The translations under genes were made by a program, and so were the position numbers. Of a stretch of 64,000 nt of DNA, positions 43,127-62,364 are shown in pieces (positions within the stretch are counted from its first letter, which is position 1; each line of letters opens with the position of its first letter). The notes beneath the pieces are model-generated. The model was given only the letters and a program-made list of their open reading frames with translations, searched no databases and had not been told where the DNA came from. This DNA is from Acidobacteriaceae bacterium (GTDB taxonomy: Bacteria; Acidobacteriota; Terriglobia; Terriglobales; Acidobacteriaceae). The stretch lies in assembly GCA_025361625.1 (NCBI GenBank), contig JANYKL010000166.1, forward strand, positions 1 to 64,000, given 5' to 3'.

Positions 43127-43750
43127 CTAACGAAGCTTACCGAACGTAGCGATCCGGATAATCGGCGAGTGACGGTGCAGCGTAAGTTCAGGGGTAACGG
43201 CATCCACAGCATCGTTTCCGGTACGGGCGACAAGAACCTTATTATAATCTTGCACGAACGAGTTGACGTGGAACGGCGAAGCAAGACTTTGAACGCTAGG
43301 CGCAGCGACGTTTTTGCAAGATGGAATCGCTGCCGAAATTGCGGTGACTGTTCCAGCCACTAAGTCAACCAGCCCGGTAATTTTGGTCTGTGTTCTAGGG
43401 TCACTAACCTGCGCTGCTTGCAGCACCAACTCCTGATCGCCCGCGTAAACACCGATCGCAGCTTGCAGTTGTTGGCAAACTCCCGGCGTTGCACCAGATG
43501 AAGCTTTGGCGAAATCGGCGGCCAACGTTTTTAAAACGGCAGCGTCAGAATTGATTTTAGTTACCAGGCTAGTGTTCAACGGTACCCCTTGAGCTACGGC
43601 CACGATCTGCAGAATATTGACTAAGGCAGGCGCTGCAGCCGCGAGAATAGAATCAAGAGTCACGATCCACGCCGTTGAACATCCACTGCAGACCATTGCG
43701 AGCATAAGCGCGATAGAGACGGTTAATTCGTTAGGCAGAACTTTCCTCAT
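43127..43750 (-). CDS. small lipoprotein at end of phage lysis module
   Basis: Lipobox-like ALMLAMVCSGCSTAW; position after endolysin and holin-like genes. Confidence 0.6.
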   Translation of the reverse strand: MRKVLPNELTVSIALMLAMVCSGCSTAWIVTLDSILAAAAPALVNILQIVAVAQGVPLNTSLVTKINSDAAVLKTLAADFAKASSGATPGVCQQLQAAIGVYAGDQELVLQAAQVSDPRTQTKITGLVDLVAGTVTAISAAIPSCKNVAAPSVQSLASPFHVNSFVQDYNKVLVARTGNDAVDAVTPELTLHRHSPIIRIATFGKLR

Positions 43751-43784
43751 AAATACTCCTTATTGTTTTAAAAGTGGATTTACT

Positions 43785-44141
43785 TCAAGTGTTAGGAGAC
43801 TTGCGCGCGCCTTCCAAACTCGCCATCCGCATGGCTCGATTGCGCAGGATATGCAGTTCGCCCTGAACAACCACAAGCTGAGCTTGATTTCCCCTGACCG
43901 TAGCCGCATTACTGTTACTCACCGCCTGAAGCGCAGCGATCGCCACATCGCGAAGATTAGCTTGGGCACAATGTTCTTTCTTCCATTCCTGATCGGAGAG
44001 ATATTGCTGTTCCCGCTGCCCTGCCGTTCGTTGAGCCGCTCCGTAAGCAAGAAGCCCATGGATAAGAAATCCAACGAATGCCGTAGTGACCGCGCCATAA
44101 GTGTTCCAGATAGCCGGCTGTATTTCCGCCAGCATCCTCAT
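43785..44141 (-). CDS. hypothetical membrane protein, lysis module (spanin/holin-like candidate)
   Basis: One hydrophobic helix GAVTTAFVGFLIHGLLAYGA followed by a charged helix; overlaps the upstream holin-like ORF. Confidence 0.5.
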   Translation of the reverse strand: MRMLAEIQPAIWNTYGAVTTAFVGFLIHGLLAYGAAQRTAGQREQQYLSDQEWKKEHCAQANLRDVAIAALQAVSNSNAATVRGNQAQLVVVQGELHILRNRAMRMASLEGARKSPNT

Positions 44142-44344
44142 TGCGGTCCCGCTCTTTCATTTGGCTCTGGCCTTCCCCCGGTTGGCGATGGAAGCCAATG
44201 GGCCAAAATGATAGCTAGCGGCGCCAGAACAACCGCCGCGCTAGCGTGGCTAGCCCAGAAGGCGGTGACCGCCGGAGTTGCAGCGCTGCCGAGCGCTGAT
44301 AGCAACAGGATGATCGTTGGCAAGTATGGTTTAACGTTTTTCAA
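44138..44344 (-). CDS. holin-like small membrane protein
   Basis: TTG start with GGAGG upstream; 68 aa: MKNVKPYLPTIILLLSALGSAATPAVTAFWASHASAAVVLAPLAIILAHWLP, two TM helices, next to endolysin. Confidence 0.6.
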   Translation of the reverse strand: MKNVKPYLPTIILLLSALGSAATPAVTAFWASHASAAVVLAPLAIILAHWLPSPTGGRPEPNERAGPQ

Positions 44345-44390
44345 CTGTAAACACCTCCACCGCGAGATATAACGGCTGCGCAAGTTAAGC

Positions 44391-44837
44391 TTAGGAGCGG
44401 ATTCCAGTCTCGTATGCAGATTTCGCCGAGGCCTTCGTGAGGCTTTCATTGCGAAGTTGACCGCCCTCTGGCGACAAGCCGACATGCACCCATCCATACT
44501 CAAGAATGAGTTGGTCAAACTGGATTTGTGATTCGACGATTTTCGCGGCCACAACCGCCGGTCTCCCAAAAGACGAACACGTGAAATCGCAAGCCAAACC
44601 TAAACAGTGCGCGCTCGTCGCTACGCCACCAACCGCCCGGTTAACTGCGGTCGAGCGATACCCGCTATGCACCTCTATCGGGTAATCGTCGACCAGATGT
44701 CGAATCGTTTCCATCAAACCAGCCAGTCGTTTGAGATTTAATAATTGCCCGTCGTCCGGAGAGTTATCAACTCCCAAAAGGCGAGCTGCCTCAGAGAACG
44801 TAAGTTCTTCGAATGTGAAATGTTCCGAGAGCTTCAT
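44391..44837 (-). CDS. phage endolysin, peptidase M15A-like
   Basis: HFTFEELTFSEAARLLG...VHSGYRSTAVNRAVGGVATSAHCLGLACDFTC...GWVHVGLSPEGG. Confidence 0.9.
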   Translation of the reverse strand: MKLSEHFTFEELTFSEAARLLGVDNSPDDGQLLNLKRLAGLMETIRHLVDDYPIEVHSGYRSTAVNRAVGGVATSAHCLGLACDFTCSSFGRPAVVAAKIVESQIQFDQLILEYGWVHVGLSPEGGQLRNESLTKASAKSAYETGIRS

Positions 44838-44856
44838 TGGTTAGATAGGTCCAAGA

Positions 44857-47829
44857 TTAGATATGTCCAAGGTTGACTGCAAAAACATCCCCACGCTGAG
44901 TCTGTGGTCCAATGTCTTGCCAAACAGTTCCACCGGGGCAACTCGTCGAGTAAGGAAGCACTGGATTCGAGCTCGACCCAGAGGCGCTGTCGCAGATCGT
45001 ATTTCCCGCAGCCGACGTTGTCGGTCCAACTGATGTGCTGAAGTAGGAGTTCGGCAACGCCGGGCCGGGCTGTGCAACTCCCGTCGGGCCGCCAACGAAG
45101 ACTGCCTGAAACACATCATCCACCGCGCCCGAACCTGTCGTTCCTTCAATAGGATTAATCATGTTCCCAGCTATGTAAGTAGTGCTTGGCGCCCAAGGCA
45201 GACCGCAAACGCTTGATGGGGTGGCAGGTACAGCAGTGACGACCAACATGCCGACGTGCGTACCTGAAGACCACACCGTCGGTGCTACTCCTGTGGTCGA
45301 TCCATTGTGACAATTCCAATCACTCGACCAGAATAACCAGTTCGCATCCTGCGAATATTCACTAATCTGGAATTGCGTAGAAAATGTCGCACTAGTGCCC
45401 GTGGCGAACGTGTGCGTAAACTGCCATACACTTCCCGCGCTCGTGGCGGGTAGAGCGGAACTGTCGTACGTCGGAGATGTTTGGTAGCAAGTTTCCATAT
45501 TCTGCCAGGCATTAAACCCCGGGCCGAGAGTCGCGTAATTAAACGATGTTCCGCACGCCGGAAATGTATCCGTCCCAGGGTCGCCAACCCAGCTCAAATG
45601 CGAGTCAAGAACCTCCGATAAATTGCAATCAGGATTCTGGATCGAACTGGTACTCACATAACAGCCGGACGGAAGCGCTTGTGAGATTCCAGAGCCGGCA
45701 TTTCCTAGCGGTTTGAGATACACGCTAAACTTCGGGATGGTATTAGCCGTCGAGGCGCTGTAAATGCTGGTGAACATTCCAGCCGTATAACCAAAAGCAG
45801 AGCCATTGAACGCCACCATTTTATTAGTGCCTATCGCCCAATGATTCATTCCGGCATATGTAAACTGAAGCGAGCTGAGTGAATTGAATGAAGAACTCGT
45901 CGTCTGCCACATCAGAAAATTCTGCAATGAATTGCAAGCCGGATAGACGTCGGATTGGCTCGTGATCTGGCCAAACAACCCGTTAGTACTGAGTTTGAGA
46001 TTGTGAACATAAAAAGGACATTCCTGCGCCGGCGTCGTATTCATAGGATTCGAAATTGCGTTCAACGTTCCTACGGTTACAGAGTTCCATGTCCCCGCTG
46101 AACAGACAGAATCCGTGCCACTTGAGCACGTCCAATCTGTCCAAATGCCTGTCAGTGTGTTCAAGAGGTGATAGACATTGCTGATGTGGTCATACTCTTC
46201 AAGCCATGCCCCCGACCCTTGGTCAGCTGTATATTTCGAGTAAGTTGGCGCAAGGCCATATGAATTGGTAGAAATCGCTATCCCATATTTGGACGACAAT
46301 CCGCCATAGGCAGTATCTCGACCAATGCCGCCGATAGCGTGCCATAGCTGATTACCGTTAGCTACTGGGTAACTCGGTCCCACATTAACCCACACAATCC
46401 CATGGGCGTCTCCGACTGTGGATGACATGATGTCGGGATGTCCGGTAAGCGCAACTGTTGCTCCAGACGTGCCAACGGTCTGCAAGCCCGGAGTCGCCAG
46501 GATAACTTGGCCGCTATTCTGAAAAGTAAGAATCGTAGTGTAGAGCGTGCCGGTACCGCCCGCGTTGCCTGCTCCACTGACAGAAATTGCCTGCCCTACC
46601 ATACCAGCGTTAAAAGGACTGCTAGACGAAGTGAGGACCGCGCTGGCCGCAACCATCGCCCCATTCGTTGCGACTGGCGAACCCACGGCAACCCAACGGA
46701 ATGCCGCAGTGGCAGAAACGCCCGCTGCCCCCATATTCTGATAGATAAACTGAGGTCCGCTGTTTGTCCCTCGCCATTGCAAACTGGATGGAGCAGCTTC
46801 TTTTACAATGTTGTTTTGGCATGGCGCTGTAGAATTGAACGCGCTTGCGCTAAGTAGCGTCGCGTTGGTAGCTCCCTCTACAATGGCACGGTACATGCAT
46901 GCCCCGCCAAAGGGCACGATAATATCTCCCGCGCTGTAGGCGGTTGTAACCGAGTAATTCAAATATTCGGGGAAGCTGGAACCGGGCGCCCCAAGGACGT
47001 GTGTCACATAGCTGCCATAAGGATAAGTTGTTCCGGTCGTCCAATTGTGCGAATTTGGTCCCATAGGCAGCCCGTACTGAAAATCTACAATTGGAGCTCC
47101 GACGCTATATGCTCCGTTATTAGAATTCAAGGTGTAAGGTGTAACTGTCAGCGGCGTTGAGATGTCAAAACTATCGTTCCCGAATGTGTACACGACACTC
47201 GGGTCCGTTAGCGAGAAACTCAACGACCCGAAGTCATTAGCTGGGCAGCTAGTGGTGCAACTTCCCCCAGTTAGTTGCCCTGTGGTTATGAATACTCCCG
47301 AGGCTGGTGCGGTGCCACTCCATCCTGCCGGCGGAGTCCCACAATGCCCGCGATTCGACCCGCTAGTAGCAAAGACACAAATCAGCCCGTTAGTACTTTG
47401 ATCGATACGCACTAATGTTGTGTTCGTATTCGTCAGAGTGAAAGCGCCAGAACCGCCCGCCCCCGCCGTAAAGTTGACGTTGGCTTTGCCCACGGCGCTG
47501 ACCGAATCAGTCAACCTTGTAACCGAACTCAAGAGCGATGAATTGTTGAAGGTGGTTACCCCGTCTCCGTTCAAATGACCCAAAAAGGAAGTGTCGACGA
47601 CCGTCGCCCCGTTGTTCGTTGCGCCGCCAAGATTCGGTACCGTGCCCCAAGGAACGACGTCAATGCCGGTGAAGGCACAAAAGTTTGGCGCTGCACAGCC
47701 GCTCCCTGACACCGAAAGCAATTCCTTTCCAGTGTCCGACCCGCCGCCTGTGTAGGCAGCTTGCCCCCAGCTAAGCGGACAGTGCAATGTGAGCAGGCTC
47801 ATGATCAAGGCTGCTGCAGCAGATTTCAT
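44857..47829 (-). CDS. very large exported protein in phage cluster (tail fibre/adhesin-like candidate)
   Basis: Signal peptide MKSAAAALIMSLLTLHCPLSWGQA; Gly/Ser/Thr-rich, with repeated motifs of the type WAPSTTYIAGNMI / YSAGDIIVPFGGACMYRA. Confidence 0.7.
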   Translation of the reverse strand: MKSAAAALIMSLLTLHCPLSWGQAAYTGGGSDTGKELLSVSGSGCAAPNFCAFTGIDVVPWGTVPNLGGATNNGATVVDTSFLGHLNGDGVTTFNNSSLLSSVTRLTDSVSAVGKANVNFTAGAGGSGAFTLTNTNTTLVRIDQSTNGLICVFATSGSNRGHCGTPPAGWSGTAPASGVFITTGQLTGGSCTTSCPANDFGSLSFSLTDPSVVYTFGNDSFDISTPLTVTPYTLNSNNGAYSVGAPIVDFQYGLPMGPNSHNWTTGTTYPYGSYVTHVLGAPGSSFPEYLNYSVTTAYSAGDIIVPFGGACMYRAIVEGATNATLLSASAFNSTAPCQNNIVKEAAPSSLQWRGTNSGPQFIYQNMGAAGVSATAAFRWVAVGSPVATNGAMVAASAVLTSSSSPFNAGMVGQAISVSGAGNAGGTGTLYTTILTFQNSGQVILATPGLQTVGTSGATVALTGHPDIMSSTVGDAHGIVWVNVGPSYPVANGNQLWHAIGGIGRDTAYGGLSSKYGIAISTNSYGLAPTYSKYTADQGSGAWLEEYDHISNVYHLLNTLTGIWTDWTCSSGTDSVCSAGTWNSVTVGTLNAISNPMNTTPAQECPFYVHNLKLSTNGLFGQITSQSDVYPACNSLQNFLMWQTTSSSFNSLSSLQFTYAGMNHWAIGTNKMVAFNGSAFGYTAGMFTSIYSASTANTIPKFSVYLKPLGNAGSGISQALPSGCYVSTSSIQNPDCNLSEVLDSHLSWVGDPGTDTFPACGTSFNYATLGPGFNAWQNMETCYQTSPTYDSSALPATSAGSVWQFTHTFATGTSATFSTQFQISEYSQDANWLFWSSDWNCHNGSTTGVAPTVWSSGTHVGMLVVTAVPATPSSVCGLPWAPSTTYIAGNMINPIEGTTGSGAVDDVFQAVFVGGPTGVAQPGPALPNSYFSTSVGPTTSAAGNTICDSASGSSSNPVLPYSTSCPGGTVWQDIGPQTQRGDVFAVNLGHI

Positions 47830-48015
47830 ATCTATCGCTCCAAAAAAGTTTTGCGTGGCTCCCAAATCTTGCATCAACTCCAACGCACACCTCTTCAACG
47901 AATGAGTCGCCCGCCAAGAGGGACGAGCCGAAACCTCGGACGAATCTGTGGGCGGCTTCGATATAATGTTTCTTCGGTGTCTTCACACTGCGCGGTCTTG
48001 ATTTGAAAGGGAGCT

Positions 48016-49311
48016 ATGCCGACTGACGTTGTAATGCCTCAAATGGGGGAGTCAATCTTCGAAGGAACCATCACCAAGTGGCTCAAGAAAGCCGGTGAAA
48101 AAGTTCAACGCGACGAACCCCTCTTCGAGATCTCCACCGACAAGGTTGACGCTGAAATTCCCGCTCCCGCGAGCGGCGTTCTACAGGAAATTAAGGTGTC
48201 AGAGGGCAACACGGTCCAGGTCAATACGATCGTCGGCATCATCGGTGATGGGACTTCAAACGCCTCGACAAGTGCCAGCGCCCCATCCACAGCAGTTGCT
48301 CCGACGCCCCTTAACAGAGAGGCTAGTGCGCCTCCTCCTCAGCAACTCGCGGCCCAGGCCCCAGCGTCCGAAGAAGACGATTCGGATGTCCGTTCTTCTC
48401 CGCTAGTCCGAAAGTTGGCTCGAGAGCACAACGTGGACTTGGCAAAGTTGAGCGGCACAGGAACCGGAGGCCGGGTCACCAAACAAGACGTCCTTGACTT
48501 CGTGGACAATCGCAAGACCACATCAATTCAGCCAACCGAGGCCTCGGTTGAACGCTCAGCCTCGCCCTCTGCGCCACGTGCAACACCCCCCGCCTCGTCA
48601 ATGGTTACTGGCGACCTTGTCCCGATGTCCCAAATGCGCAAAATCATCGCTCAGCGCATGATCGAATCGCGTCGCACCAGCGCTCATGTTCACTGCATGT
48701 TTGAAGTGGATATGACCCGGATCGTCAATCTGCGAAACAAACTGAAAACTGGCTTCGAACAGCGCCACGGCGTTCGTCTGACCTTCATGCCATTTTTCGT
48801 GCGCGCCGCGATCATTGCACTTCAGCAATACCCAATCGTCAACGCTTCGCTCGACGGGGACAGCGTTCGCTATCACAAGCAAATCAACGCTGGCATCGCC
48901 GTGGCGCTGGATTGGGGCTTGATCGTCCCGGTTTTAAGGAACGCCGGAGATTTAAACTTTCTCGGCCTCCAGCGCGGCATCACCGACTTAGGCGAGCGAT
49001 CTAGAACCAAGAAGTTGATGCCTGCCGACGTCGAAGGCGCAACCTTCACCATTACTAACCCTGGCCAGTTTGGCGCAGTCTTCGGGTTGCCCATCATTAA
49101 TCAGCCCAACGTGGCAATCATGGGCGTCGGCGGAATCGCCAAGCAACCGATGGTAATCACTGACCAGGACGGTGCCGACTCCATCGCGATCCGTTCAGTG
49201 GTCCATCTAACTCTCGGCTACGATCACCGGATTATCGATGGCGCACTCGCCGATAAATTTATGCTCGCCGTTAAAAAGTCCATGGAAAACTGGAGCGAGG
49301 AGATCGGCTAA
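48016..49311 (+). CDS. 2-oxo acid dehydrogenase dihydrolipoamide acyltransferase (E2)
   Basis: Lipoyl domain DEPLFEISTDKVDAEIPAPASG, PSBD SSPLVRKLAREHNVDLAKLSGTGTGGRVTKQDV, catalytic LGYDHRIIDGALADKFM. Confidence 0.95.
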   Translation: MPTDVVMPQMGESIFEGTITKWLKKAGEKVQRDEPLFEISTDKVDAEIPAPASGVLQEIKVSEGNTVQVNTIVGIIGDGTSNASTSASAPSTAVAPTPLNREASAPPPQQLAAQAPASEEDDSDVRSSPLVRKLAREHNVDLAKLSGTGTGGRVTKQDVLDFVDNRKTTSIQPTEASVERSASPSAPRATPPASSMVTGDLVPMSQMRKIIAQRMIESRRTSAHVHCMFEVDMTRIVNLRNKLKTGFEQRHGVRLTFMPFFVRAAIIALQQYPIVNASLDGDSVRYHKQINAGIAVALDWGLIVPVLRNAGDLNFLGLQRGITDLGERSRTKKLMPADVEGATFTITNPGQFGAVFGLPIINQPNVAIMGVGGIAKQPMVITDQDGADSIAIRSVVHLTLGYDHRIIDGALADKFMLAVKKSMENWSEEIG

Positions 49312-49323
49312 CTTGTTCGATAC

Positions 49324-50712
49324 CTAGAACGGATAGTCAACACGCAGTGCCGCCGAATATCTGGAGTATTTCGGTGGCACACTATTGTCAAAGCTCTTCA
49401 GAAAGTAAACTTGAGATCTTGCATATCGCGTAAGCGAAAACGCGCCGCTCGTGAAGCGCCCAATCAAATTGCGGTTATTAGTAACTCCCCATCCCGCGTC
49501 CGAATTCCTCACCTCGATCCCGCCACCAGCCACTGGCGTCACGCCTGCATCGATAGTTACCGTGGTCGATCCTATATTAGTGAAATCGGCATTTGTTAAA
49601 TCATCTAGATAAGCATTTCCAACCTGCGTCAGTTCGACTGGAACTAAGGCCTGCCTTTGCTTCACTAGTGCCGTTAAAAATGCGAAGTCCAAAGAAGGAT
49701 CGCCCGCATCTACAAACCGGAGAGTGTATCGGCTGTTCTCACCCCCCAAATCTGCCAGTGACACTTTGACTTCGACAACGATCGCATTAAAAATTGCCCC
49801 CCGTGAAGGAACATTGATCGCCAGTCCATCCCCTGGAAAGATGTCGCTTGCCCCACCTGGCAAATAAGCTGACCACGCCTGATATTCGCCCGCCCACCCC
49901 TGCGTCGCATCATCCAGCAACGCCAGTGCGGCATTTTCGCAACCAATCGAGGTGCGCGGAACAGGTAAGCCAACCTGCCGAATATTCCCCCGCACACCAT
50001 CATCTCTGCCGTTGCTCAAGGCAGAAATACCGGCCGAGTTCACAATGCGCGCCGCAGCATGGCCCTCACCTCGATAACTCACCTCAATCAGTTGATTTGC
50101 CGCTGGGATATATTCCGGGTAAAACTCCACGGCGAGCGCGGAAGAAATCCGGCATTGCGCACCCTCAAGCAACGATCCGGTTAGCACGGTAATCGTGGTC
50201 GCACCAGGAATAGTGCTTCGCACCAATGCATCGAACGGTAGAGCGATATAAGTGAACGCGATTGCGGCATGAATCGCGCCCGCGTTAACGAGCGCGTAGT
50301 TGCAAAAGTCCGGCGCATTCGTTACTAGTCCGTCATAAAGAACGGTCGCAGGGGCAACCTGCGTTGCCGGATTTCCCGGATTAATATCCTGGACCTGCAA
50401 CACAATTCGAACGTTACATCCTATCGATTTACCGCCCAAAGCGTTGCCGATCCCATGCACTGAAGAATGAAAGACTTGTTGCGATCGATAAGCTTCAGCG
50501 GGATACAGTTGAGTGGAGAACACATAGTGGTGCCCCACCTGAGTGACTATCTGCGTACCTGCGACCGATCCCCCAACTAATGCCTGAATTGAGGTGTCAG
50601 ATCCTAAACGAGTAACTCGAAACCCGGCAATACATCCTTCGATGGATGGGCGTCCCGCGTATAATCGGTTTTTGTGACAGGTGGAATTTCGTCGTGTGTC
50701 CGTCCCCGACAA
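49324..50712 (-). CDS. phage tail-associated hypothetical protein, C-terminal part (frame broken from upstream ORF)
   Basis: Starts inside 50597..51442 in another frame; collinear continuation likely. Confidence 0.6.
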   Translation of the reverse strand: MSGTDTRRNSTCHKNRLYAGRPSIEGCIAGFRVTRLGSDTSIQALVGGSVAGTQIVTQVGHHYVFSTQLYPAEAYRSQQVFHSSVHGIGNALGGKSIGCNVRIVLQVQDINPGNPATQVAPATVLYDGLVTNAPDFCNYALVNAGAIHAAIAFTYIALPFDALVRSTIPGATTITVLTGSLLEGAQCRISSALAVEFYPEYIPAANQLIEVSYRGEGHAAARIVNSAGISALSNGRDDGVRGNIRQVGLPVPRTSIGCENAALALLDDATQGWAGEYQAWSAYLPGGASDIFPGDGLAINVPSRGAIFNAIVVEVKVSLADLGGENSRYTLRFVDAGDPSLDFAFLTALVKQRQALVPVELTQVGNAYLDDLTNADFTNIGSTTVTIDAGVTPVAGGGIEVRNSDAGWGVTNNRNLIGRFTSGAFSLTRYARSQVYFLKSFDNSVPPKYSRYSAALRVDYPF

Positions 50713-51442
50713 AGAAGTCTTTCACGTGTGCCGCAGGCTCTAGCTCTCCTAGGATTGTTAGATCATTCACGACACGGTCTACGCTCTGCAATCGCAGTCC
50801 GGCCGGAGAGAATGAAGCATCCTGTTCCGTCATTGCATAAGCACTCGCCCCAAGGGGCGCGAGGAACAGCTTCCCGTCTAGGTCACGATAAGAACAGCGA
50901 CCAGCAACTGCAATTTCCGCGGCAAGTTCCGTCCACTTCTTCGCCGGATCGACGTTGAAGTAGGGACAGGTGTCCCCCAGTTCAACGCCGCTTAGGTCGA
51001 AAAAGTTGGGAAGCGCGTCTTGAGTCAATTGCGTGAAGGCATCGCCAGTTCTCCGGTTTACGAAAGCAGGATGAGGTGGTGGCGCCTTCTCATCCATCAA
51101 GGTGACATCGCTGAGTGCATTTACTTCGTACCGATAGACTGAGCCGCGATCTCCCCATCCAACATACGTGCCCGCTGGTGGTTGGGCGGTATACCCCGTA
51201 AACAAATGCATCCCGCTATCGGCAATCAGTATCACGCGAGCGTGGTGCGCAGGCACTACGAAAGGTCCTGGCCCTGGCACCAAGCCGAACTTCATTTCTG
51301 CCGGCCGGTTAAGTCTGCGCACTAGTGTCGCAGGCTGCACCGGATCCAGAACAGACGTATGATCTTGCAGCCCGAGACCGTCCGAATTGTCGATCAGCAA
51401 TTTCATAAGCTTCGTGGTATGGCTTTCACAGGACTGCTGCAC
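50597..51442 (-). CDS. phage tail-associated hypothetical protein, N-terminal part
   Basis: Ends FFVGDGHTTKFHLSQKPIIRGTPIHRRMYC*, a phage structural-protein-like segment truncated by frame break. Confidence 0.6.
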   Translation of the reverse strand: MQQSCESHTTKLMKLLIDNSDGLGLQDHTSVLDPVQPATLVRRLNRPAEMKFGLVPGPGPFVVPAHHARVILIADSGMHLFTGYTAQPPAGTYVGWGDRGSVYRYEVNALSDVTLMDEKAPPPHPAFVNRRTGDAFTQLTQDALPNFFDLSGVELGDTCPYFNVDPAKKWTELAAEIAVAGRCSYRDLDGKLFLAPLGASAYAMTEQDASFSPAGLRLQSVDRVVNDLTILGELEPAAHVKDFFVGDGHTTKFHLSQKPIIRGTPIHRRMYCRVSSYSFRI

Positions 51443-51477
51443 CTGCAGGGTGTTGTCTGCCTTGGAGCCGCGGTTTG

Positions 51478-52455
51478 TCAGTAAACTGGCGAACCGCTGG
51501 CGGGAAAGTAACTCCTATAACTGAGAACGAGGGCCGCGTCGTTGCCGTCAGTAGTCGGAAGAGAAATGAAGGCGGCATGTAACGCCATCTGTCCGAGAGG
51601 TTTCTGTATTTCGGCAAGGCTTTCTCTTACCCAGTCGCTCTTAACGGTACAGGGACTCAAAATCGGATAATAAAAACAAACTCTACCGCCCGATTCGTCC
51701 TCCGCCACAAACAACGCAGTCCACTGCTGAAGAAATGTCCCGCCTTCACGGTCCACAAACGCAGTTACTCTCTGCACCGAAGCCCCCGCGAGGGGCGGGC
51801 CCCCAGGTAGTGCCTGGGCAAGCACCAAGGACCCAGGCGTTGTAAATGCCACCCGCCCAACGTTGAATGTCACCCGCCGAACGTAGTTGGTATCTTGCCT
51901 GACGTTGGCGGAGCTCTTGACATAGGCCGCCGCTACGCCGCTACCCACGTACCCAACCTGCTGCGCATAATCCACGTCGCAGGCGATTAAGTCGCCCGTC
52001 CGAAAACCGCCGGCCGAGCCAGTTCCCAACAAAAGTTCGGTAGCTGAGGAGCCTGGGAGCAATGGAACCGCCGCCAGCGCCGTTCCTCCAGATCCAGCCC
52101 GATTTGCGCTTGGGTCGCTCGCAAGCACATTCATGTGCTCCGCTCCACCAGCGAGCGCCATCTGCAATTTACCCCAATCGCGAAACTCAAACTCCACCCG
52201 CGCGCCCAAGGCGTGGCGTGCCTGTCTAGCAACTGCTCCTGCAGCACCTGCACTCAGCTCTTCAATTTGAGAAGTAGTGGTCCTCTTAAAATTTTCTATC
52301 CACCCCAAATCAATCCAGGGTGCTGGCGGCGCATCCAGTTGAAATCCGCTATCCTTCGACGGATCGAAGATAGTCATAGGTCCATTTACTCGGTCAACCG
52401 CAGCGAAGTATGCTCGCGTCTGTCGTGATATCGGTCGTAGCCCGGCGCGGCTCAC
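51478..52455 (-). CDS. putative phage tail protein
   Basis: Position between connector genes and tail-tip-like genes; 325 aa, beta-rich composition. Confidence 0.55.
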   Translation of the reverse strand: MSRAGLRPISRQTRAYFAAVDRVNGPMTIFDPSKDSGFQLDAPPAPWIDLGWIENFKRTTTSQIEELSAGAAGAVARQARHALGARVEFEFRDWGKLQMALAGGAEHMNVLASDPSANRAGSGGTALAAVPLLPGSSATELLLGTGSAGGFRTGDLIACDVDYAQQVGYVGSGVAAAYVKSSANVRQDTNYVRRVTFNVGRVAFTTPGSLVLAQALPGGPPLAGASVQRVTAFVDREGGTFLQQWTALFVAEDESGGRVCFYYPILSPCTVKSDWVRESLAEIQKPLGQMALHAAFISLPTTDGNDAALVLSYRSYFPASGSPVY

Positions 52456-52970
52456 GCCTCAACCTCAGGTAAGAAAAAGTAAATCCGCAGCTGAGCCTGA
52501 CGACTTACGCGTCCTCTCCCCGCACTCCATTGTTGTTTTTCAACCGCGCGGCCTTCGAGCACATTGTTCATCTCTGGCACCGTCCAGAAAATTCCCGATC
52601 CAAGGTTCGCAATCGGAGTCTGGCTGTAGTCAAACATTGCTGCATGGGGCGGATCACACATGCCTAACAGTTCTCCATCCATTTCCGCGAGCATCCTTCC
52701 CCGATCCACGCCCGTCCCCCCGCTACCCTCACTCGCATACCAAATCTTGCAGTCGATTCCAAGCATTGGACGCGAACTTTCCGCAATTAGAATTTCACCA
52801 AAGTCCAAAAAAAACGCTCCCGCTTGCGCTTCAACAAATCGCGGCTCCATATTTTCCCGTACAACGATTGCCGGAACTGTTACGCCGTCAATCACCATAG
52901 TGCGCGAAGGATTAAGCCCCACCAATCGTTCCCTTAAGGCAACATAAAAACTATCTTTGGCTGCTTGCAT
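52452..52970 (-). CDS. putative phage minor structural protein
   Basis: Position in structural operon; 4-bp overlap with the downstream gene. Confidence 0.5.
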   Translation of the reverse strand: MQAAKDSFYVALRERLVGLNPSRTMVIDGVTVPAIVVRENMEPRFVEAQAGAFFLDFGEILIAESSRPMLGIDCKIWYASEGSGGTGVDRGRMLAEMDGELLGMCDPPHAAMFDYSQTPIANLGSGIFWTVPEMNNVLEGRAVEKQQWSAGRGRVSRQAQLRIYFFLPEVEA

Positions 52971-53039
52971 ACCTCTCCCATCAGAACCAGGGCGCGTGCA
53001 CCATGTGTCCAGGTTGCGAAGTTGTCTGTTTGATCTTTC

Positions 53040-53444
53040 CTAGGAAACTGCAACCACCCGATAGAGGTAACTCACCCCTCCAAGCCTTTCGACCACGAAA
53101 CCTTCTATGTGGAACATCTCGCCGAAGTACACTAAACCCAACGCCGTCTCGAAGAGCACATCGCCCGAAGCGACATTTCGCTGGCTGATTGACTCCGCCA
53201 AAGCCGCATGGCTCGCCAGTACTTCCAACCGCCTTCGGGGGCCGCTAATCTCTGTGGTTATTTCACTAACTATCACCGGCGAGATCGCAACCAGCACTAC
53301 TCCAGGGTCGATCAAACCGAGTTGAGCATTCGCACCCCCGGGGTGTCCTGCTGCCGCAAAGACCAACGCTATTTGGGCCCCGCCAAGAGTCTGTAGCATC
53401 GCATCAGCTGCACGCGCTGCTGCCGTTCCAGAAATCCCAGTCAT
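53040..53444 (-). CDS. putative phage head-tail joining protein
   Basis: Size and position after connector; no clear family motif. Confidence 0.5.
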   Translation of the reverse strand: MTGISGTAAARAADAMLQTLGGAQIALVFAAAGHPGGANAQLGLIDPGVVLVAISPVIVSEITTEISGPRRRLEVLASHAALAESISQRNVASGDVLFETALGLVYFGEMFHIEGFVVERLGGVSYLYRVVAVS

Positions 53445-53450
53445 TCTCCG

Positions 53451-54080
53451 TCACCCAACCTTCCGCGCTACGTAAGGCGCCAGCAATGACTGCACCGTCG
53501 CATCCATCAATGAATCAGAGAAGTACATCAACTGCATTCGGTCAGGCAGCACGTTCCGCTTCACATTGAGCGCCGGAGTTGCCTGCGCATTTCTGACAAT
53601 CTGCGCGCACGCCACTTTCACCACGTCAGGAAACGTGGCAAGACCTGCCGTATACACAATTTCGATCTCAGTGAACGTCCAGCCAAGAGCGTTGATTGGA
53701 AGCGTAATTTCTCCGGTAACGGAAAAATAGTCCAGATCCGCAACATTTAGCCTTACCCACGTGCCGGGAATCCCGAACACAATCGCCGCATCCCAAACAA
53801 TCGAGTCATATTCCATTTCTCCACGCCGCGGCGTTGAGTACCGTGCTTGGGCCGAAACAATTGGAAAGGTGGCCGGATCTACCGCACTGAGAGGCAAATA
53901 AGTAAGGCGCAGCGGGCGATGGCGATTCTCCGTTCGGAGTCTCTCGGTATATGTCGCAATTCCAAGCGTCGTTCTACTGCAATGAGCGTCGATAATCGCC
54001 GACGCTGCCGTCACCCACGATAGAGCTGTTGTAGGTTCGAGTCCGTATAGCTCGTATTCTGATGGTTGCAGGTAATTCAT
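53451..54080 (-). CDS. phage head-tail connector (gp6-like) protein
   Basis: LEPTTALSWVTAASAIIDAHCSRTTLGIATYTERL...IEIVYTAGLATFPDVVKVACAQIVRNA. Confidence 0.75.
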   Translation of the reverse strand: MNYLQPSEYELYGLEPTTALSWVTAASAIIDAHCSRTTLGIATYTERLRTENRHRPLRLTYLPLSAVDPATFPIVSAQARYSTPRRGEMEYDSIVWDAAIVFGIPGTWVRLNVADLDYFSVTGEITLPINALGWTFTEIEIVYTAGLATFPDVVKVACAQIVRNAQATPALNVKRNVLPDRMQLMYFSDSLMDATVQSLLAPYVARKVG

Positions 54081-54170
54081 GTTGAGGTCCAGATCCGAGA
54101 CGCGTGCGGGCGCTCCACGACTGCGGCTTGATGCCGCAACGCAATTGCGCCCGCTTCCGCACCTCTACGA

Positions 54171-55139: not shown

Positions 55140-55238
55140 GTTTTCTCCTAAATTAAGATTTCGTTCCAAATCCGCAGCAAAATCTTCAGATCGTTCCGCT
55201 CTTCTAATTGCTGTTGATTCACAATAAGAAGTCGCAAT

Positions 55239-55264
55239 AAAAAAAGGTGCGACTAAGCCGCACC
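55239..55264 (-). terminator. intrinsic terminator between scaffold-like and capsid genes
   Basis: Minus strand GGTGCG-gcttagt-CGCACC followed by TTTTTTT. Confidence 0.75.
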
Positions 55265-55296
55265 CATCGCACTCGAAACGTCGTAATTGTGAACAA

Positions 55297-55725
55297 TTAG
55301 TCGATCATTCCCGCCCTTGCCAATTCTGCCTTCACTGCGATACGTTGCTCGACGCTAAGTGTCGACAACGTCTTGTTGAGCATGCCCTCATCAAATCGCT
55401 CACTATCGATGGCGTTTTTCCCAATAAGGGCAGACACGACGGGAGACAAAGTTTTACGCACCATCCGCGAAGCCTGGGCTTTTAATTCAGCATTGGATTT
55501 CTCCAATTGATCCACGCGTTTCTGGACTTCGGTGCCTTCCGCCCCACTGCTCTGTTTGTCAAACTGAGAAATGCTTTCCTCGACAGCAGCCACTATTCGA
55601 TCCACTTTTGCGTTGAGAACTTCTTGTTGTGCATCGAGTTTTCCCAATACGCGATCTAGTGTCTCGCTTGCCGCAGCCAACCGTTCGGCCGCGATCACCA
55701 TTTGCTGGACGATTTCTTCACTCAT
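55297..55725 (-). CDS. putative scaffold-like coiled-coil protein
   Basis: Heptad-rich MSEEIVQQMVIAAERLAAASETLDRVLGKLDAQQEVLNAKVDRIVAAVEES; located between protease-like and capsid genes. Confidence 0.55.
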   Translation of the reverse strand: MSEEIVQQMVIAAERLAAASETLDRVLGKLDAQQEVLNAKVDRIVAAVEESISQFDKQSSGAEGTEVQKRVDQLEKSNAELKAQASRMVRKTLSPVVSALIGKNAIDSERFDEGMLNKTLSTLSVEQRIAVKAELARAGMID

Positions 55726-55789
55726 TTACATCCTCCCTAAACTATTTCTGCCTATTTGTTTACAGCTGACTTACAACTCCTCGGTCTGC

Positions 55790-56353
55790 CTATGCAAGTT
55801 CAATCCAAGTCGAACCATAGGCTGCCTTATCTCGCCTCAGTACAGCCGCGCCAGTGAACGTAACCCGGTTCAAAACCCACACGCTAGCCTTGATGTCTTC
55901 TACCAGCGCATCAGTGATCTCGTAAGACATGCCAAGCTCCGCGCCCGACATGCTTTCTGCCTTCCCGCCAGTCTGGGGCGCCGCCGAGATCGTCTCATTC
56001 CGTAGTCGAGACCTTCCTATCTCCTTCACTATCTCCGGAAAATCCCTCGCATATAGAAAACCGCCAACTTCGATTGCTCGTCCCACAATCTCCGCCCGGG
56101 TGATTACTCCAATTTTCCTGCGAGCATCGTGCCGGTCCAGCCCAGGCGAGTAATCAAGCCCCATTCCCATAAGCGAGGGAATGGCTGCCTCGGCGGCGCT
56201 GCGAGTCAGCAGCACGCGATGGCCTCGTGCGCCAGACGGAGACTTGTCTGACGCAGCATCCACGCTAGTCAGCACTCCCCGAAATCCGGCCCGATTCGGG
56301 TGCCCGAATACCGTCGGCATGTGTATCGCCATCGATTCCAAAGACAATCCCAT
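55790..56353 (-). CDS. putative prohead protease-like protein
   Basis: GLDYSPGLDRHDARRKIGVITRAEIVGRAIEVGGFLYARDFPEIVKEI; position between portal and capsid genes. Confidence 0.55.
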   Translation of the reverse strand: MGLSLESMAIHMPTVFGHPNRAGFRGVLTSVDAASDKSPSGARGHRVLLTRSAAEAAIPSLMGMGLDYSPGLDRHDARRKIGVITRAEIVGRAIEVGGFLYARDFPEIVKEIGRSRLRNETISAAPQTGGKAESMSGAELGMSYEITDALVEDIKASVWVLNRVTFTGAAVLRRDKAAYGSTWIELA

Positions 56354-56402
56354 CTACTTATCTCCTGGTATGACCTGTTTCATTACTCACACTGAGTTCT
56401 GA

Positions 56403-57698
56403 TTACGATGATCCGATGATCTCTGCCAGTCCTCGCGCCCGTCGTACTTCATTCACAGTAACCACGCCGTTGCGGAGCAGGATTTCATCGATTTGAGCTT
56501 GTTCCATTTCGTCCTGCGCATCGACGTCGGTGAACACAAATTCCAGATCAGACCATCCCAGCCTTTTGCAAATCACATCTCGCGTAAGCGACTCGGCAAT
56601 TAAGCGTGCCGTTGGCACGATTGCCGAGCGAAATGCCATCTCCGTCATCTCCGCGGCCGTAGACCGATTCACATCCTGTTCGAGCCCGAGGAATACCGCC
56701 GGCAGGTCAAAGGCATTTGCGATGATACGAATTAGAAATTCCTGCCAGGCCAGCCTTAGATCAGCGTCCGTTCCCGCCCCGAATCGCAACACTTCCGGTT
56801 TAGACTCCGCGGAGATAATCGGTACCCGCCCCGTTCCTTCAATCTCGTCCTGCCACCATCGGATCAAGCGCTCATGGTGAGCGGGAGTCAAACCCTGGAG
56901 CCAAATCGCATACTGCACCACTGAATTCGTTGCAAGCTGTCCTGCGTAGCGGTACGCGCCCAGGAAAGCGCTGATGGTTTCAAACGCAACTTCTACTCGC
57001 CCCAATCCAAAGGGCGTGTGCGATCGTGGATTCAGCCGGATATAACTAAGTTCGTTATCATCGAGAACGACCTGCCCCTCCGCGCCGTAAAGCCCTGTAA
57101 CCTGCGCATACCTCGGTGAATCCGGATTCCCATTCCAATCCGTCATGATGCGTATCGTCGCCCCGTCCACCGGCCACATCACTAAAGGCAGCGAGTGGAT
57201 TGCCGAGCTATGTTCGGTCACGGCATGATCGCTTAGTCCTATTTCAATCGCTCCGAATCCACCCACGATCACATCTTCCAGAACTTGCTCGAGCAAAGAC
57301 CGGAATGAATCGTCAGGATTAGGCGCTTCAAAATTCTCCGTGAGCAACTGAATTCGATATGCACCATCCGGAATTTGCTCGATGGTTCGTCCTCGCCGAG
57401 GCTGAATGCGCCAGCGCATACCCACGATCCGGTCCTTAATCACATTGATCGCGCGGCGAGCCACCGGAGTTTCCGCGAATTTACGCAAATTAGCCGGCGT
57501 TGGCTTCAGGGCTAGATTCTGTGACGTAGGAGCGCCCGCCCGCGCAAAAGCCGGAGAATATAACGGGGCCAGGTTCGACCCCGCTCCCACTGTCCGCCGC
57601 CCGTACATACCGGCGTCAGAACCTGCGGAAAACAAACCTTGCAAAGACATTGTTCCTACTCGGCGAATTACTTCGCGAACTTTTTCCTGAATTTTCAT
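56403..57698 (-). CDS. phage portal protein
   Basis: PVARRAINVIKDRIVGMRWRI, LNPRSHTPFGLGRVEVAFETI, NAFDLPAVFLGLEQDVNRSTAAEM; order terL-portal-capsid. Confidence 0.88.
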   Translation of the reverse strand: MKIQEKVREVIRRVGTMSLQGLFSAGSDAGMYGRRTVGAGSNLAPLYSPAFARAGAPTSQNLALKPTPANLRKFAETPVARRAINVIKDRIVGMRWRIQPRRGRTIEQIPDGAYRIQLLTENFEAPNPDDSFRSLLEQVLEDVIVGGFGAIEIGLSDHAVTEHSSAIHSLPLVMWPVDGATIRIMTDWNGNPDSPRYAQVTGLYGAEGQVVLDDNELSYIRLNPRSHTPFGLGRVEVAFETISAFLGAYRYAGQLATNSVVQYAIWLQGLTPAHHERLIRWWQDEIEGTGRVPIISAESKPEVLRFGAGTDADLRLAWQEFLIRIIANAFDLPAVFLGLEQDVNRSTAAEMTEMAFRSAIVPTARLIAESLTRDVICKRLGWSDLEFVFTDVDAQDEMEQAQIDEILLRNGVVTVNEVRRARGLAEIIGSS

Positions 57699-57846
57699 GA
57701 TTGCCTCGTAGTGCTGATCCCATCCAGTGCGGGAAGGGAGTCTCGGCTGTCAATAGCGAGCCACATTTGCTTGATCGGCCCTTATTCTCCAGATCAAGCT
57801 GCCTCTTTTTTAAAAAACGGTGAGCGTCCTGATGGTTTGCCGCACG

Positions 57847-57875
57847 CAAAAACGGCATGGCTCTCGCCATGCCGT
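57847..57875 (-). terminator. intrinsic terminator downstream of the HipA-like/DUF3037-like pair
   Basis: ACGGCATGGC-tctc-GCCATGCCGT perfect 10-bp stem; minus strand followed by TTTT. Confidence 0.75.
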
Positions 57876-57918
57876 CGTCATATACAAATATTGCCTTACG
57901 AACGCTCTGTCCCGTCAC

Positions 57919-58746
57919 TCATGGTAGCTGCCAGGAACTCCGGGCTAGAGTCGCATCTCCATCCGTATTCCCGACGCAATCCCTTCGATATCCCCCAGAG
58001 TTTTCACAATCACTCCGCTTTGTACCCATGGTGTCGATCGCAAACTGATTGCGCTCTTCCTTTACCGCAGGCCGATGTTCCAATATCGCCGTAAATGAAG
58101 GCTGGAGCTGTTCCTGCCGCATCATCTGTTCGATCCGGGAATATCGATAGGCCAGCGCCAATGCCTGGTCCACATTGACAGCAACTGACACACCGTGAAA
58201 CATCTTCAATGTCGCCCCCGTCCGGTATCCAAAATCGATCCGAAACGGATCTCCGACACCCATGTATCTTCCCATGTCCAAATCAGTTTGCATGAGCTTA
58301 AGCACCCCGGCTTTCGAAAACGCCTCGGACATCTGGTACACGATCGCCTTTCGACCAGCCCGGTGCGGCTCATCTCCCCGGCTACTAGCTGCTAAATGAA
58401 TAGCAGTCAGAGTTTCCATCTCTTTCGCGGGATTATCTGCCAGTATCCCCTTCACCGGCGCGACATCGAAAGTGGAACCGAATGTAACTTCGATGAGCCG
58501 CCTGACATCTTCATGATTCTGTACGAATTGCAATTGGTCGCGAATTTCTCGTTCCGCCGCTTCCAGCCACTCCAGTTCCATCTCAGGGGCAATACAACGC
58601 AACAGGTGCCAGTCCCGCGTGAAGCGCATATCTTTAAACCAGCCGTTATCCTCCAACAGGGTGAATCCGATAGTGATGAAATCGTCTCGCCCTGTAAACG
58701 GTAAGAACCGCAAAAGAGAAAGCTCAAATTGTCGTCTCTCGGTCAT
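57919..58746 (-). CDS. DUF3037-like protein
   Basis: LSLLRFLPFTGRDDFITIGFTLLEDNGWFKDMRFTRDWHLLRCIAPEMELEWLEAAEREI; directly downstream of HipA-like kinase fragments. Confidence 0.7.
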   Translation of the reverse strand: MTERRQFELSLLRFLPFTGRDDFITIGFTLLEDNGWFKDMRFTRDWHLLRCIAPEMELEWLEAAEREIRDQLQFVQNHEDVRRLIEVTFGSTFDVAPVKGILADNPAKEMETLTAIHLAASSRGDEPHRAGRKAIVYQMSEAFSKAGVLKLMQTDLDMGRYMGVGDPFRIDFGYRTGATLKMFHGVSVAVNVDQALALAYRYSRIEQMMRQEQLQPSFTAILEHRPAVKEERNQFAIDTMGTKRSDCENSGGYRRDCVGNTDGDATLARSSWQLP

Positions 58747-58776
58747 GGAGATTTATTCAGTCATTCACTCGCAGCA

Positions 58777-59582
58777 TCAAGACTCATACGGCCACTGCGG
58801 AAACGGCCTTCGGGGCGATCCGCGAAAAGCTAGTATTAACTCACGGACTACAGATTTCCGCTCGATTAAGTGTTTCACCAACAACTCCAGTTCATCCCAT
58901 AAACCGCCGTACCAAGCGGGTGGTATCTCTCCTGCCACACGCCAAATCGCCTCGTCGCTCAACTTCTCAACCCGCGATAACCAGGGCTCGAAAGACTCCC
59001 ACCCATTCACGCGCGCGTATACTTCATTTCTCGGGTACACTCCCCTGAGCGGGAAGTCCGGAAACGTCCATTCCCCGGCATTGAAGCAATATCCTTGGTC
59101 GATGAAGGTCGCAGAAAATTTTTTCTCTCGTGACTTTTTCCAGAAAGCCGCTTGCCGCCCATCCGCATTACAGGTCCACTTATCTATCGCAAGCATCCCC
59201 GCGAACGTCTCAATATTCCTTACTCTATTGAGAAGGTCAGCGTCCAGGAATTCGCACATATTCCCGTCGACGGGCTGACCACATATCGCGAGCCAAACTG
59301 CAGTCCCGACTCGACTTTTATTTCTCGTCCACTAAGTAAAATGGAAAGTTCAGCTGTATTCTCCACCAACCACGGCTTCACTTCGATGACTTCAACTACA
59401 GGCACCGGTAAACCAACAATTCCTGCCAATCTTGTGGCAAGAAATTCATTTGCCAGTACTCGTTCATGTTGCGGGTTGTTACGAAACTTTACGACATAGT
59501 AATGAGCGTCATCACATCGCATTAGATGACTCTGTGATCCTCCACGCATTCTTCTCAGATGTTGGACCGCTTGGGTGGTCAT
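58777..59582 (-). pseudogene. HipA-like kinase split into two overlapping frames (59220..59582 and 58777..59259)
   Basis: Frame 1: VVKFRNNPQHERVLANEFLATRLAGIVGLPVPVVEVIEV; frame 2: LLNRVRNIETFAGMLAIDKWTCNADGRQAAFW. Together they make one coherent HipA-family reading; break near 59220-59259. Confidence 0.75.
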
Positions 59583-59678
59583 AGCTTCACAAGCGTGTCA
59601 TCACCTTCGTACTCGTTGCTAAGTGAAAGAGAACCAATCCGAGACACCGACGGACGATACTCCGCGCTGGCCTATTCC

Positions 59679-59698
59679 AGTGTGACGACCGTCACACT
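59679..59698. promoter_or_regulatory. 20-bp perfect dyad, operator-like
   Basis: AGTGTGACG-AC-CGTCACACT between the terminase stop and HipA-like start. Confidence 0.6.
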
Positions 59699-59706
59699 TC
59701 ATATGG

Positions 59707-62364
59707 TTAGCTATTGGATAGCGCGTCCCATCGAGGCCCGGAACGCGTCCGGCCAGCTTCCGTTCTTCTCACCTCCCACGCAATCGCTAGTGCCATAACG
59801 CAATCGTCGTGGGTTCCCGCCGCCGCCCCGGTATTTCCATCTGCTCCCCGAACAAATGTGCGGCACTCGTTCAAGAGCCGCAAGCTTCGAAACTTTGCAG
59901 GATCTTCCGCCAGCGCTAACGCCAGATTCTCAATCATCACCGGCCTGCTAACCGCCGACGTCAGCCACCCATCTTGTCCTTTTTGCACGTATATATTTGA
60001 ATAATCCAATGTATGTAGAAGGGCCAGCACTGCGTGTCCATGGTTGTTGCGTTCTACCGCAATCAAACCGCAGTTGTATTCTCTTCCCAGCTCCACCAAC
60101 TTCCGGGCGAATTCGCGCGGAGGATAATGCCCGCGCAACTCCGCACACTGGGCGCCCATCTCACGATCGATTACTTCCGCGCATGAATAATCTCCTTCCG
60201 CGCCGCCCCCCGCTGGGTCCACGCCAATGACATATTCTCGTCCAGGCCTCGCCGGCAACCAGGTCATAAACCGACCATTATCACGGCTCTCCAAAGGTTC
60301 CGTCGCAAAACTCAAGGCCCGTTCCACAGCTTCTAGGTCGAAGACACAATCGCCGGACGCCAGAAAGCACGAGACATCATCCTCCCCAAACTCTTGCCCA
60401 GTGAACTTCCGCAATAGACTTCGTTGTTTCCGGCGCCATGAAAGCTGACGATGATCGATACCGTGATTCTTAACTAATTCGATCTCATCTTCTGCCAGCG
60501 GAAACATGTCGCTCCCCGGCTCCATCCTGTAACTGGGTTCGAACCACCACGGGAAAAAATGCTTCTCATACCCAGTTTCGTTCGCCCTCTGCCACTCGTC
60601 GTAGAACAGGCCCCCCGCGCCATTAGGCGTGGACTCCATCACAATCTCACCCCCCGGAACTACCGCAGCTCGCAAAGATGCCAGCACTTCTTCGCCACCC
60701 CGTCCCCATCGGGCAACTTCAGAACAGTGCAAATTTTGAATCGTTATTCCCCTACCCGCGTTCTCGGCGGCCGATGCAACCAAGTACTCACTGTCAAGGT
60801 GCGGAAACGCTAATTGCCGCGCGTTGCTGCGGGACGTTGCTAAGGTCCCATTCCGGCAGTCTTCCGGTAATCCATCCCAAAATCGATGAACAATTCGAAA
60901 AATATCCTCGGCCGATTCTCGGTCTTGGGCGACCTGCAAAGTTACAGTTCCTCCCTTGGTGATTGTCTCCAAAAAAAATCGAGCCGCAACGTATGTCGTA
61001 ACTCCTAATTGCCGGGCCTTGAGAACAATGTTTTTCTTTCCGCACCGCCGTGAATATTCACGTTGCGCCCGGTTTAATCTGAAGCTTGTTTCCTGGGAGG
61101 TCTTGCCACGTATGTTAAGCCAGCGCTCGATCAGCACATCTCTCAGAGTAGGAGTCCACAAGCCCTCTTCCTCCATACGCTCGTAGCTCTTTGAAACCGT
61201 CACTCCATTCGAGGTGTTCGCCGTGATCGACGAATCCCGCAACGTAATCACCGGAGCAATCTGCTGCGCCTGATTGCCCGCGGAAAAGACAAAAGATCCA
61301 GTCCAGTTCGCATTCCCGTTCAAACTGATCGCGTTGTTGTTGAAGTGCGTAATCGTAACGTTCTCGTCATCCCACAAATCAAAAAAGTTATTGAACTTCC
61401 CATTCTCCCCGACCTTGTCGTAAGAGATATCCGCAAGATTGGTATTTACTGCGTTATCGAGGATCGCCACATAGGCCAGGGCAACAACCCCCGGCGTCGT
61501 CTGCGCCGCCAGATCCGCCCCCGCGTGCGCATACTGAAATGTGGTTGCATTCGGCACTGCCGTGACGATCGCATCTCCCCAATACGCGCTGGAGTCGGTG
61601 AACAGAATCGTCACCATATCTCCAACCCGAAAACCGTGTGCGGAGCCGGTACTCACCGTCACCACCTGCGAGGTTCGCTGCGTCTGCGCAATTGCGACGC
61701 CGGCAAACGACGGATTCGTCGACAAATCCACCGGAGCGCGAAAACTCAATCCCAACACCGTCGTATTCGTATAATCGTTTGAATTCTTTAAATCTCCCAC
61801 CTGCAAGCAAGCCCCGCGCCCCAAACAGTTCAACGACACCCCATAGCCATTCAATACCGACTGATTCGCATGCAAATAAATCGTCCCATACACGTTGTAC
61901 GTGTTGAGCGAAGATTTGTGCTCCTTGCCCGAGGCGGGACCGTCGGGAGGGACCGCGACATTACAGTGAGTATTGAGGTAGGTAGTTTTGTCGATGCCAC
62001 AGGCTAAATTGATCGCTTCTTGTATTCCTGTAGAAGCAGATCCTATCGCTGCGCCGCTAGCATAGGAAAAAAAAGGAACGACGGCGATTGTGCCCGATGC
62101 GGCACCGGAAACACAGCTTCCGGAAACCACCCTGGCGGCCTCGCTCTTGCCGCCGCCTGAAATAAAAATGTCGTACCCAGCCCGGCTCGTCGTATCAATG
62201 CCCGCCGGACAGGGAGTTAACCGGATCGTGGCCAGTTTTCCAGCGGCGATCGGGAGAGAAGATGTTTGCTTCCAGTCCAGGGCTGCAATGCCGGTTTCGG
62301 ACGCCGCCGAACCACTTATGATGAGGGACAAAGCGAAGGTCGCAGCAAATTTTAGACGTGCCAT
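59707..62364 (-). CDS. in-frame fusion: exported beta-helix-like N-terminal region + phage terminase large subunit
   Basis: N-terminus MARLKFAATFALSLIISGSAASETG (signal peptide) and IQEAINLACG...ITLRDSSITANTSNGVTVSK; from about 61190: IVLKARQLGVTTYVAARFF (ATPase), YVIGVDPAGGGAEGDYSCAEVI, LIAVERNNHGHAVLALL, GTHDDCVMALAIAW (nuclease). Confidence 0.85.
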   Translation of the reverse strand: MARLKFAATFALSLIISGSAASETGIAALDWKQTSSLPIAAGKLATIRLTPCPAGIDTTSRAGYDIFISGGGKSEAARVVSGSCVSGAASGTIAVVPFFSYASGAAIGSASTGIQEAINLACGIDKTTYLNTHCNVAVPPDGPASGKEHKSSLNTYNVYGTIYLHANQSVLNGYGVSLNCLGRGACLQVGDLKNSNDYTNTTVLGLSFRAPVDLSTNPSFAGVAIAQTQRTSQVVTVSTGSAHGFRVGDMVTILFTDSSAYWGDAIVTAVPNATTFQYAHAGADLAAQTTPGVVALAYVAILDNAVNTNLADISYDKVGENGKFNNFFDLWDDENVTITHFNNNAISLNGNANWTGSFVFSAGNQAQQIAPVITLRDSSITANTSNGVTVSKSYERMEEEGLWTPTLRDVLIERWLNIRGKTSQETSFRLNRAQREYSRRCGKKNIVLKARQLGVTTYVAARFFLETITKGGTVTLQVAQDRESAEDIFRIVHRFWDGLPEDCRNGTLATSRSNARQLAFPHLDSEYLVASAAENAGRGITIQNLHCSEVARWGRGGEEVLASLRAAVVPGGEIVMESTPNGAGGLFYDEWQRANETGYEKHFFPWWFEPSYRMEPGSDMFPLAEDEIELVKNHGIDHRQLSWRRKQRSLLRKFTGQEFGEDDVSCFLASGDCVFDLEAVERALSFATEPLESRDNGRFMTWLPARPGREYVIGVDPAGGGAEGDYSCAEVIDREMGAQCAELRGHYPPREFARKLVELGREYNCGLIAVERNNHGHAVLALLHTLDYSNIYVQKGQDGWLTSAVSRPVMIENLALALAEDPAKFRSLRLLNECRTFVRGADGNTGAAAGTHDDCVMALAIAWEVRRTEAGRTRSGPRWDALSNS

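Follow-up and report, generated by a model that had tools for sequence, protein, structure and literature searches.

Gene transfer agents (GTAs) are particles made by bacteria that move host DNA from cell to cell. By definition, the packaged DNA is drawn at random from the host, in pieces too short to hold the gene cluster that produces the particles, and the packaged genes are transferred to recipient cells. To our knowledge, few independent GTA lineages are known. The RcGTA-like agents of Alphaproteobacteria are among the described systems closest to the locus presented here: both have a compact terL-portal-capsid-tail cluster that is vertically inherited under purifying selection and lacks excision and replication genes. 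Acidobacteriota are a dominant soil phylum, and we found no description of a GTA in this phylum in the literature searched. Two further lines of work bear on this locus. GTA control can involve a defence-like system, as is the case for LypABC in Caulobacter (PMC13236601). The HipAD system, also termed DS-6, is anti-phage (PMC13092281), and in pairs of the HipA/DUF3037 type the kinase is a toxin that DUF3037 neutralises, the pair defending the cell against phage (PMC12548924).

We analysed the first 64,000 nucleotides of contig JANYKL010000166.1 from an Acidobacteriaceae assembly (GCA_025361625.1), hereafter the window, in which a phage-type structural cluster occupies the minus strand at 43127-62514 (Table 1). 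We suggest, with a probability of roughly 0.7, that this cluster represents the structural and packaging core of a prophage that has been domesticated and functions in a GTA-like way, both in its host family, probably the Acidobacteriaceae, and in one family from a different order within the class. The core runs in the order TerL, HipA-like kinase, DUF3037 protein, portal, protease-like protein, scaffold-like protein, major capsid, adaptor, g134, g172, t325 and t781. The initial annotation of this DNA had described collinear structural genes on the minus strand, and these are present where it had placed them. Portal, TerL, head-tail adaptor, M15 endolysin and Rz-like spanin are named from HMM matches, while the names protease, scaffold, capsid and those of most tail genes follow from position, with a weak additional match for the capsid and t325.

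Table 1 Features of the cluster and its neighbour in the window.
Feature	Coordinates	Strand	Basis or remark
Secreted right-handed beta-helix protein gene, 5' part, in-frame fusion to terL	61180..62514	-	signal-peptide start 62364
terL, large terminase	59707..61176	-	phrog_2 8e-28; N-terminal ~30 residues lost
HipA-like kinase gene, one-nucleotide frameshift near 59,255	58777..59582	-	PF20613 4e-10
DUF3037 protein, putative antitoxin partner of HipA	57919..58746	-	PF11236 8e-8
Portal protein	56403..57698	-	PF04860 6e-43; relatives 57-83% identical
Protease-like gene	55790..56353	-	position only; conserved, without family match
Coiled-coil scaffold-like gene	55297..55725	-	position; kept between protease-like gene and capsid
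Major capsid protein, 323 aa	54171..55139	-	position and phrog_264 major head protein 0.011
Head-tail adaptor	53451..54080	-	phrog_442 1.8e-10
g134, neck or stopper-like	53040..53444	-	position; conserved, without family match
g172, tail-terminator-like	52452..52970	-	position; conserved, without family match
t325, candidate tail-tube protein	51478..52455	-	phrog_476 major tail protein 0.0011, 1/16 members
t781 tail-hub-like gene, 5' part	50656..51442	-	residues 1-259 of relatives' intact ~780-aa ORF
t781 tail-hub-like gene, 3' part	49324..50664	-	residues 336-781 of relatives' ORF
Host E2 gene, 2-oxoacid dehydrogenase acyltransferase	48016..49311	+	PF00198 1e-76; neighbour, not part of the element
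Large secreted fibre-like accessory gene	44857..47898	-	homologues in G021 and G017; no family match
M15 peptidase endolysin	44391..44837	-	PF08291 4e-17, phrog_894 2e-33; in five genomes of the genus
Holin-like membrane protein	44138..44350	-	C-terminal half of 143-aa ORF conserved in genus
Rz-like spanin	43785..44141	-	phrog_1403 7e-4
Lipoprotein	43127..43750	-	57-64% identity, genus relatives

The TerL, portal and capsid-type gene set expected of a GTA is thus present, with the capsid identified through its position and a weak phrog_264 match, seen in 2 of 18 members; the protein is 323 aa long in most relatives, at 69-100% identity. In PDB profile searches, the TerL profile of the relatives matched T4 gp17 and other TerL nuclease structures, the capsid and t781 matched nothing, t325 matched a single de novo protein, and HipA had no match up to an E value of 0.1. 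AlphaFold models built from shallow alignments were too poor for use (mean pLDDT 33 for the capsid and 35 for t325). Neither a small terminase nor, in agreement with the initial annotation, a tape-measure gene was identified in the cluster, and no tape measure was recognised in the relatives either.

The window copy itself appears damaged. Its 935-aa ORF, previously annotated as terL, does contain the ATPase and nuclease motifs (KARQLG, GVDPAGGG, VERNNHG and HDDC, within 61020-59800) but is in fact a beta-helix gene joined to TerL, with the junction near 61,176 at about residue 446. In G021, G008 and other genomes of the same genus, the beta-helix homologue is a separate ORF of about 2000-2300 aa some 7 kb upstream of terL (about 7.4 kb between the homologous parts in G021), and we therefore rejected the notion of a TerL with a novel N-terminal domain. 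The two frame breaks noted earlier are real. The HipA-like gene, a single ORF of 265-294 aa in most relatives, changes frame with one gap near 59,255, and t781 has lost about 228 nt and its frame at a junction near 50,660. Since the t781 stop is only 12 nt from that of E2, the holin and f37 segment is absent from this copy. Neither the window genome nor G002 yielded an XRE-S24 repressor. Because TerL, HipA and t781 are whole in nearly all relatives, we consider the window copy, with its N-terminally fused TerL, broken HipA and t781, and missing holin segment and repressor, probably non-functional. It should be noted that the assembly comprises 196 contigs, and an assembly error at the lesion junctions is possible. 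A comparison of substitution rates did not demonstrate relaxed selection in the window lineage, where synonymous sites are saturated and the host E2 branch is long as well.

Relatives of the cluster belong to the Terriglobia within the Acidobacteriota, and several are MAGs labelled palsa, bog or fen. Portal relatives occur in 16 of 61 genomes, all within the host family, and the capsid profile matched 181 of 298 genomes of the host order, almost always in single copy. In a phylum-wide sample, 41 of 50 high-quality host-family genomes carry the capsid. The profile also matched three genomes of family f7, which belongs to another order of the same class; no other family had a match in the sampled genomes. 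The comparison of synteny that the initial annotation had proposed revealed a conserved locus, with the same core order in about 30 loci, mostly intact core genes and, in portal-bearing relatives, nearly all core ORFs at full length. The host gene E2, a conserved neighbour that went unnoticed inside the 19-kb interval first delimited, is convergent with the core in 24 of 32 informative cases. All three f7 loci share the gene order and the E2 neighbour; in one of them TerL has been relocated and inverted. G061 and G114 hold the core in two blocks with most genes kept. Several observations count against a GTA-like reading: G029 has a split protease-like gene and an altered TerL C-terminus, the portal match of G157 is in two parts, no HipA/DUF3037 match was found at the G105 locus, and a minority of host-family genomes are missing the core. 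Remnants lie beside E2 at core-less loci: S24, f33, DSP and f37 in G016; DSP, HipA and DUF3037 in G083; HipA and DUF3037 in G055 of f7; S24, holin and f37 in G090; and holin and f37 in G079. An old presence followed by independent losses would best explain this pattern. E2 was also considered as cargo, which we rejected as it stays at the site in genomes without the core.

The cluster appears to have followed its hosts. Mantel correlations with rpoB were 0.65-0.84 for the capsid, portal, TerL, protease-like protein, adaptor, t325, t781 and HipA, and 0.50 for DUF3037, compared with 0.81 for host E2. The core and rpoB trees have 14 of 23 splits in common (shuffled labels gave a mean of 0.21 and a maximum of 3). 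Well-supported splits disagree with rpoB in five pairs, chiefly over where G178 and G029 belong, which leaves room for some horizontal exchange. In the unsaturated close pair G008-G021, the capsid had the lowest dN/dS (0.057) and the adaptor the highest (0.26), against 0.079 for host E2; these values indicate the purifying selection on structural genes that characterises GTAs. GC and GC3 of the cluster are host-like and close to those of E2. Congruence with rpoB, a fixed locus and a mostly single copy, set beside few conflicting splits, indicate stable vertical inheritance, and the genomic signature, as read from these sequences, matches that of a vertically inherited GTA.

These data bear on whether the locus is an ordinary degraded prophage, the remains of a temperate phage that inserted at this site and is now decaying. 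The lesions of the window copy and the phage-type lysis genes fit such an origin, as does the XRE-S24 repressor gene found upstream and divergent in 23 of 36 fetched stretches of relatives; an S24 repressor linked to the cluster is a temperate-phage trait as well and counts against a GTA-like reading. The initial annotation had reasoned that integrase and att repeats, a narrow and recent distribution, or neutral dN/dS would mark an ordinary degraded prophage. We found no tyrosine integrase or att pair in the flanks, the element is old and widely distributed, and its dN/dS values lie well below 1 (0.06-0.26 for G008-G021). Together with agreement with the host tree and with a single locus whose gene order is shared, and whose ORFs are largely unbroken, in many genera and in another order, this family-wide conservation argues strongly against simple decay for the lineage, where we regard it as improbable; as an account of the present condition of the window copy, simple decay is still adequate. 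The choice first offered, between a GTA-like element and a decaying prophage, is partly borne out, its two terms applying at different levels. A GTA-like element is favoured for the lineage because of family-wide single-copy synteny, host-tree agreement, purifying selection and the absence of tyrosine integrases, and decay is real in the window copy. On the sequence data, the family has retained the element, and the copy in the window genome is failing.

A fixed neighbour gene and patchy presence could also result if related temperate phages repeatedly integrated beside E2. As the initial annotation had it, no integrase, repressor or replication gene was found within the window cluster, and the best direct repeat in its flanks is 28 nt with a 75% match, starting inside glnS. 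Searched with a profile built from nine acidobacterial tyrosine recombinases, the fetched flanks of about 36 loci contained no such gene, although 25 of 25 genomes searched carry them elsewhere, and no replication gene was recognised by eye among the recurrent flank families. The integrase and attachment sites of a functional temperate prophage were therefore not found, and the lack of integration and replication functions typical of GTAs holds for tyrosine recombinases and for this by-eye check. Large phage contigs do share the capsid gene, which would suit repeated integration. However, neither the capsid nor the HipA protein of the cluster matched anything among 50,697 phage records. Those viral-database contigs that have the cluster in full carry the chromosomal gene set and no integrase, and the only such contig with an integrase-like match, L230, has HipA alone in common with the cluster. 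The persistence of partial remnants in core-less genomes, the retention of most genes in split loci and a phylogeny that follows the hosts likewise speak against repeated arrival, to which we assign little likelihood.

The HipA-like kinase and DUF3037 genes between terL and portal were missed in the initial annotation. The intact G008 pair matches PADLOC PDC-M66A/B, and HipA catalytic motifs are conserved in 14 of 14 aligned kinases; the catalytic motifs of TerL are conserved as well. The locus thus has the gene pair expected of HipAD, in which a HipA-like kinase that keeps its catalytic residues adjoins a DUF3037 protein, the kinase being frameshifted in the window copy. Other genes that recur in the relatives encode a dual-specificity phosphatase, small holin-like proteins (after t781) and large beta-helix proteins, among them one with a BppL_N baseplate motif. 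A domesticated particle with another job, such as phage defence or rival killing via the HipA/DUF3037 module, would agree with the defensive role of such pairs (PMC12548924, PMC13092281) and their persistence beside E2 after core loss in G083 and G055, but is hard to credit when the conservation of TerL, portal, adaptor and capsid points to packaging of DNA, and tailocins, which are pure killing particles, need neither TerL nor capsid.

Under the GTA-like reading that we prefer, cells would make capsids, which TerL, a relative of headful-packaging terminases, would load with host DNA. A tail, in which no tape measure is recognisable, would join the filled capsid, and holin and endolysin would let the particles out. 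The XRE-S24 repressor, linked upstream in most relatives, may silence the locus until DNA damage occurs. With Caulobacter LypABC as a precedent (PMC13236601), we speculate that the HipA-like kinase and its DUF3037 partner stop host metabolism or commit the cell to lysis during production. The most specific form of this proposal is an ancient Acidobacteriota GTA, independent of known GTA families, with no recognisable tape measure in its tail, with a DNA-damage switch acting through the S24 repressor, and with an embedded anti-phage toxin-antitoxin pair controlling host shutdown and particle release; taken as a whole, it is tentative and rather doubtful.

If the GTA-like reading is correct, soil harbours an old, built-in route of gene exchange that is kept by most of one family and common to a family of another order. 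A virome study of a permafrost peatland reported much DNA of non-viral origin, for which GTAs are a possible source (PMC6172770). The HipA/DUF3037 pair within a packaging cluster would then be a further case of immune modules co-opted for GTA control (PMC13236601).

Relatives of the cluster have probably been filed earlier as proviruses. Cluster 153 (PMC5900883) and group (ii) (PMC11924767) are likewise phage-like loci of Terriglobia with a gene order common across genera, and, likened by description only, are probably in part the same element; they differ in having been filed as proviruses or potentially new viral groups, with hosts that include Koribacteraceae and SbA1. The RcGTA-like agents, in contrast, belong to another phylum and gave no close PDB profile match to the capsid and tail proteins (maximum E value of 1), and the acidobacterial cluster differs from them in its internal HipA/DUF3037 pair, its S24-type repressor and its lack of a recognisable tape measure. 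Judged from its genes, the cluster looks like an undescribed type of GTA. Its accessory pair resembles HipAD (DS-6, PADLOC PDC-M66) in the succession of a HipA-like kinase and a DUF3037 protein with PDC-M66A and PDC-M66B matches, and is set apart by its place between the terL and portal genes of a conserved packaging cluster.

Four large viral contigs of 74-214 kb carry a capsid gene with 62-71% identity to that of the cluster, while nearly all other cluster genes are missing from them; in one of the contigs, L219, there is a protease-like match as well. In terms of identity, these viral capsids are nearer to those of the host family than to those of f7, a family of another order with the same cluster, and we therefore consider it likely, from these sequence comparisons, that the capsid was exchanged between the GTA-like element and large phages.

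Two genomes that have lost the core still carry HipA and DUF3037 at the cluster's locus, next to the host acyltransferase gene E2, and this suggests that the pair is of independent worth to the host. The pair was not detected at the G105 locus (L085-L086), where the cluster is otherwise complete, and thus it may be dispensable for cluster retention.

An XRE-S24 repressor gene is conserved family-wide upstream of the cluster; neither the window genome nor genome G002 yielded one. Between this gene and terL, a dual-specificity phosphatase gene recurs (19 genomes), a possible partner of the HipA kinase.

Coordinates of features in the compared sequences
Feature	Location	Strand	Remark
Capsid-bearing viral contig	L219:1495-2388		
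Capsid-bearing viral contig	L220		
Capsid-bearing viral contig	L221		
Capsid-bearing viral contig	L222:10001-10975		
XRE-S24 repressor gene	L034:2595-3236	-	homologues in other regions
Dual-specificity phosphatase gene	L034:4926-5426	+	with homologues
Core-less loci adjoining E2, with HipA and DUF3037 (genomes G083, G055)	L180-L181, L186-L187
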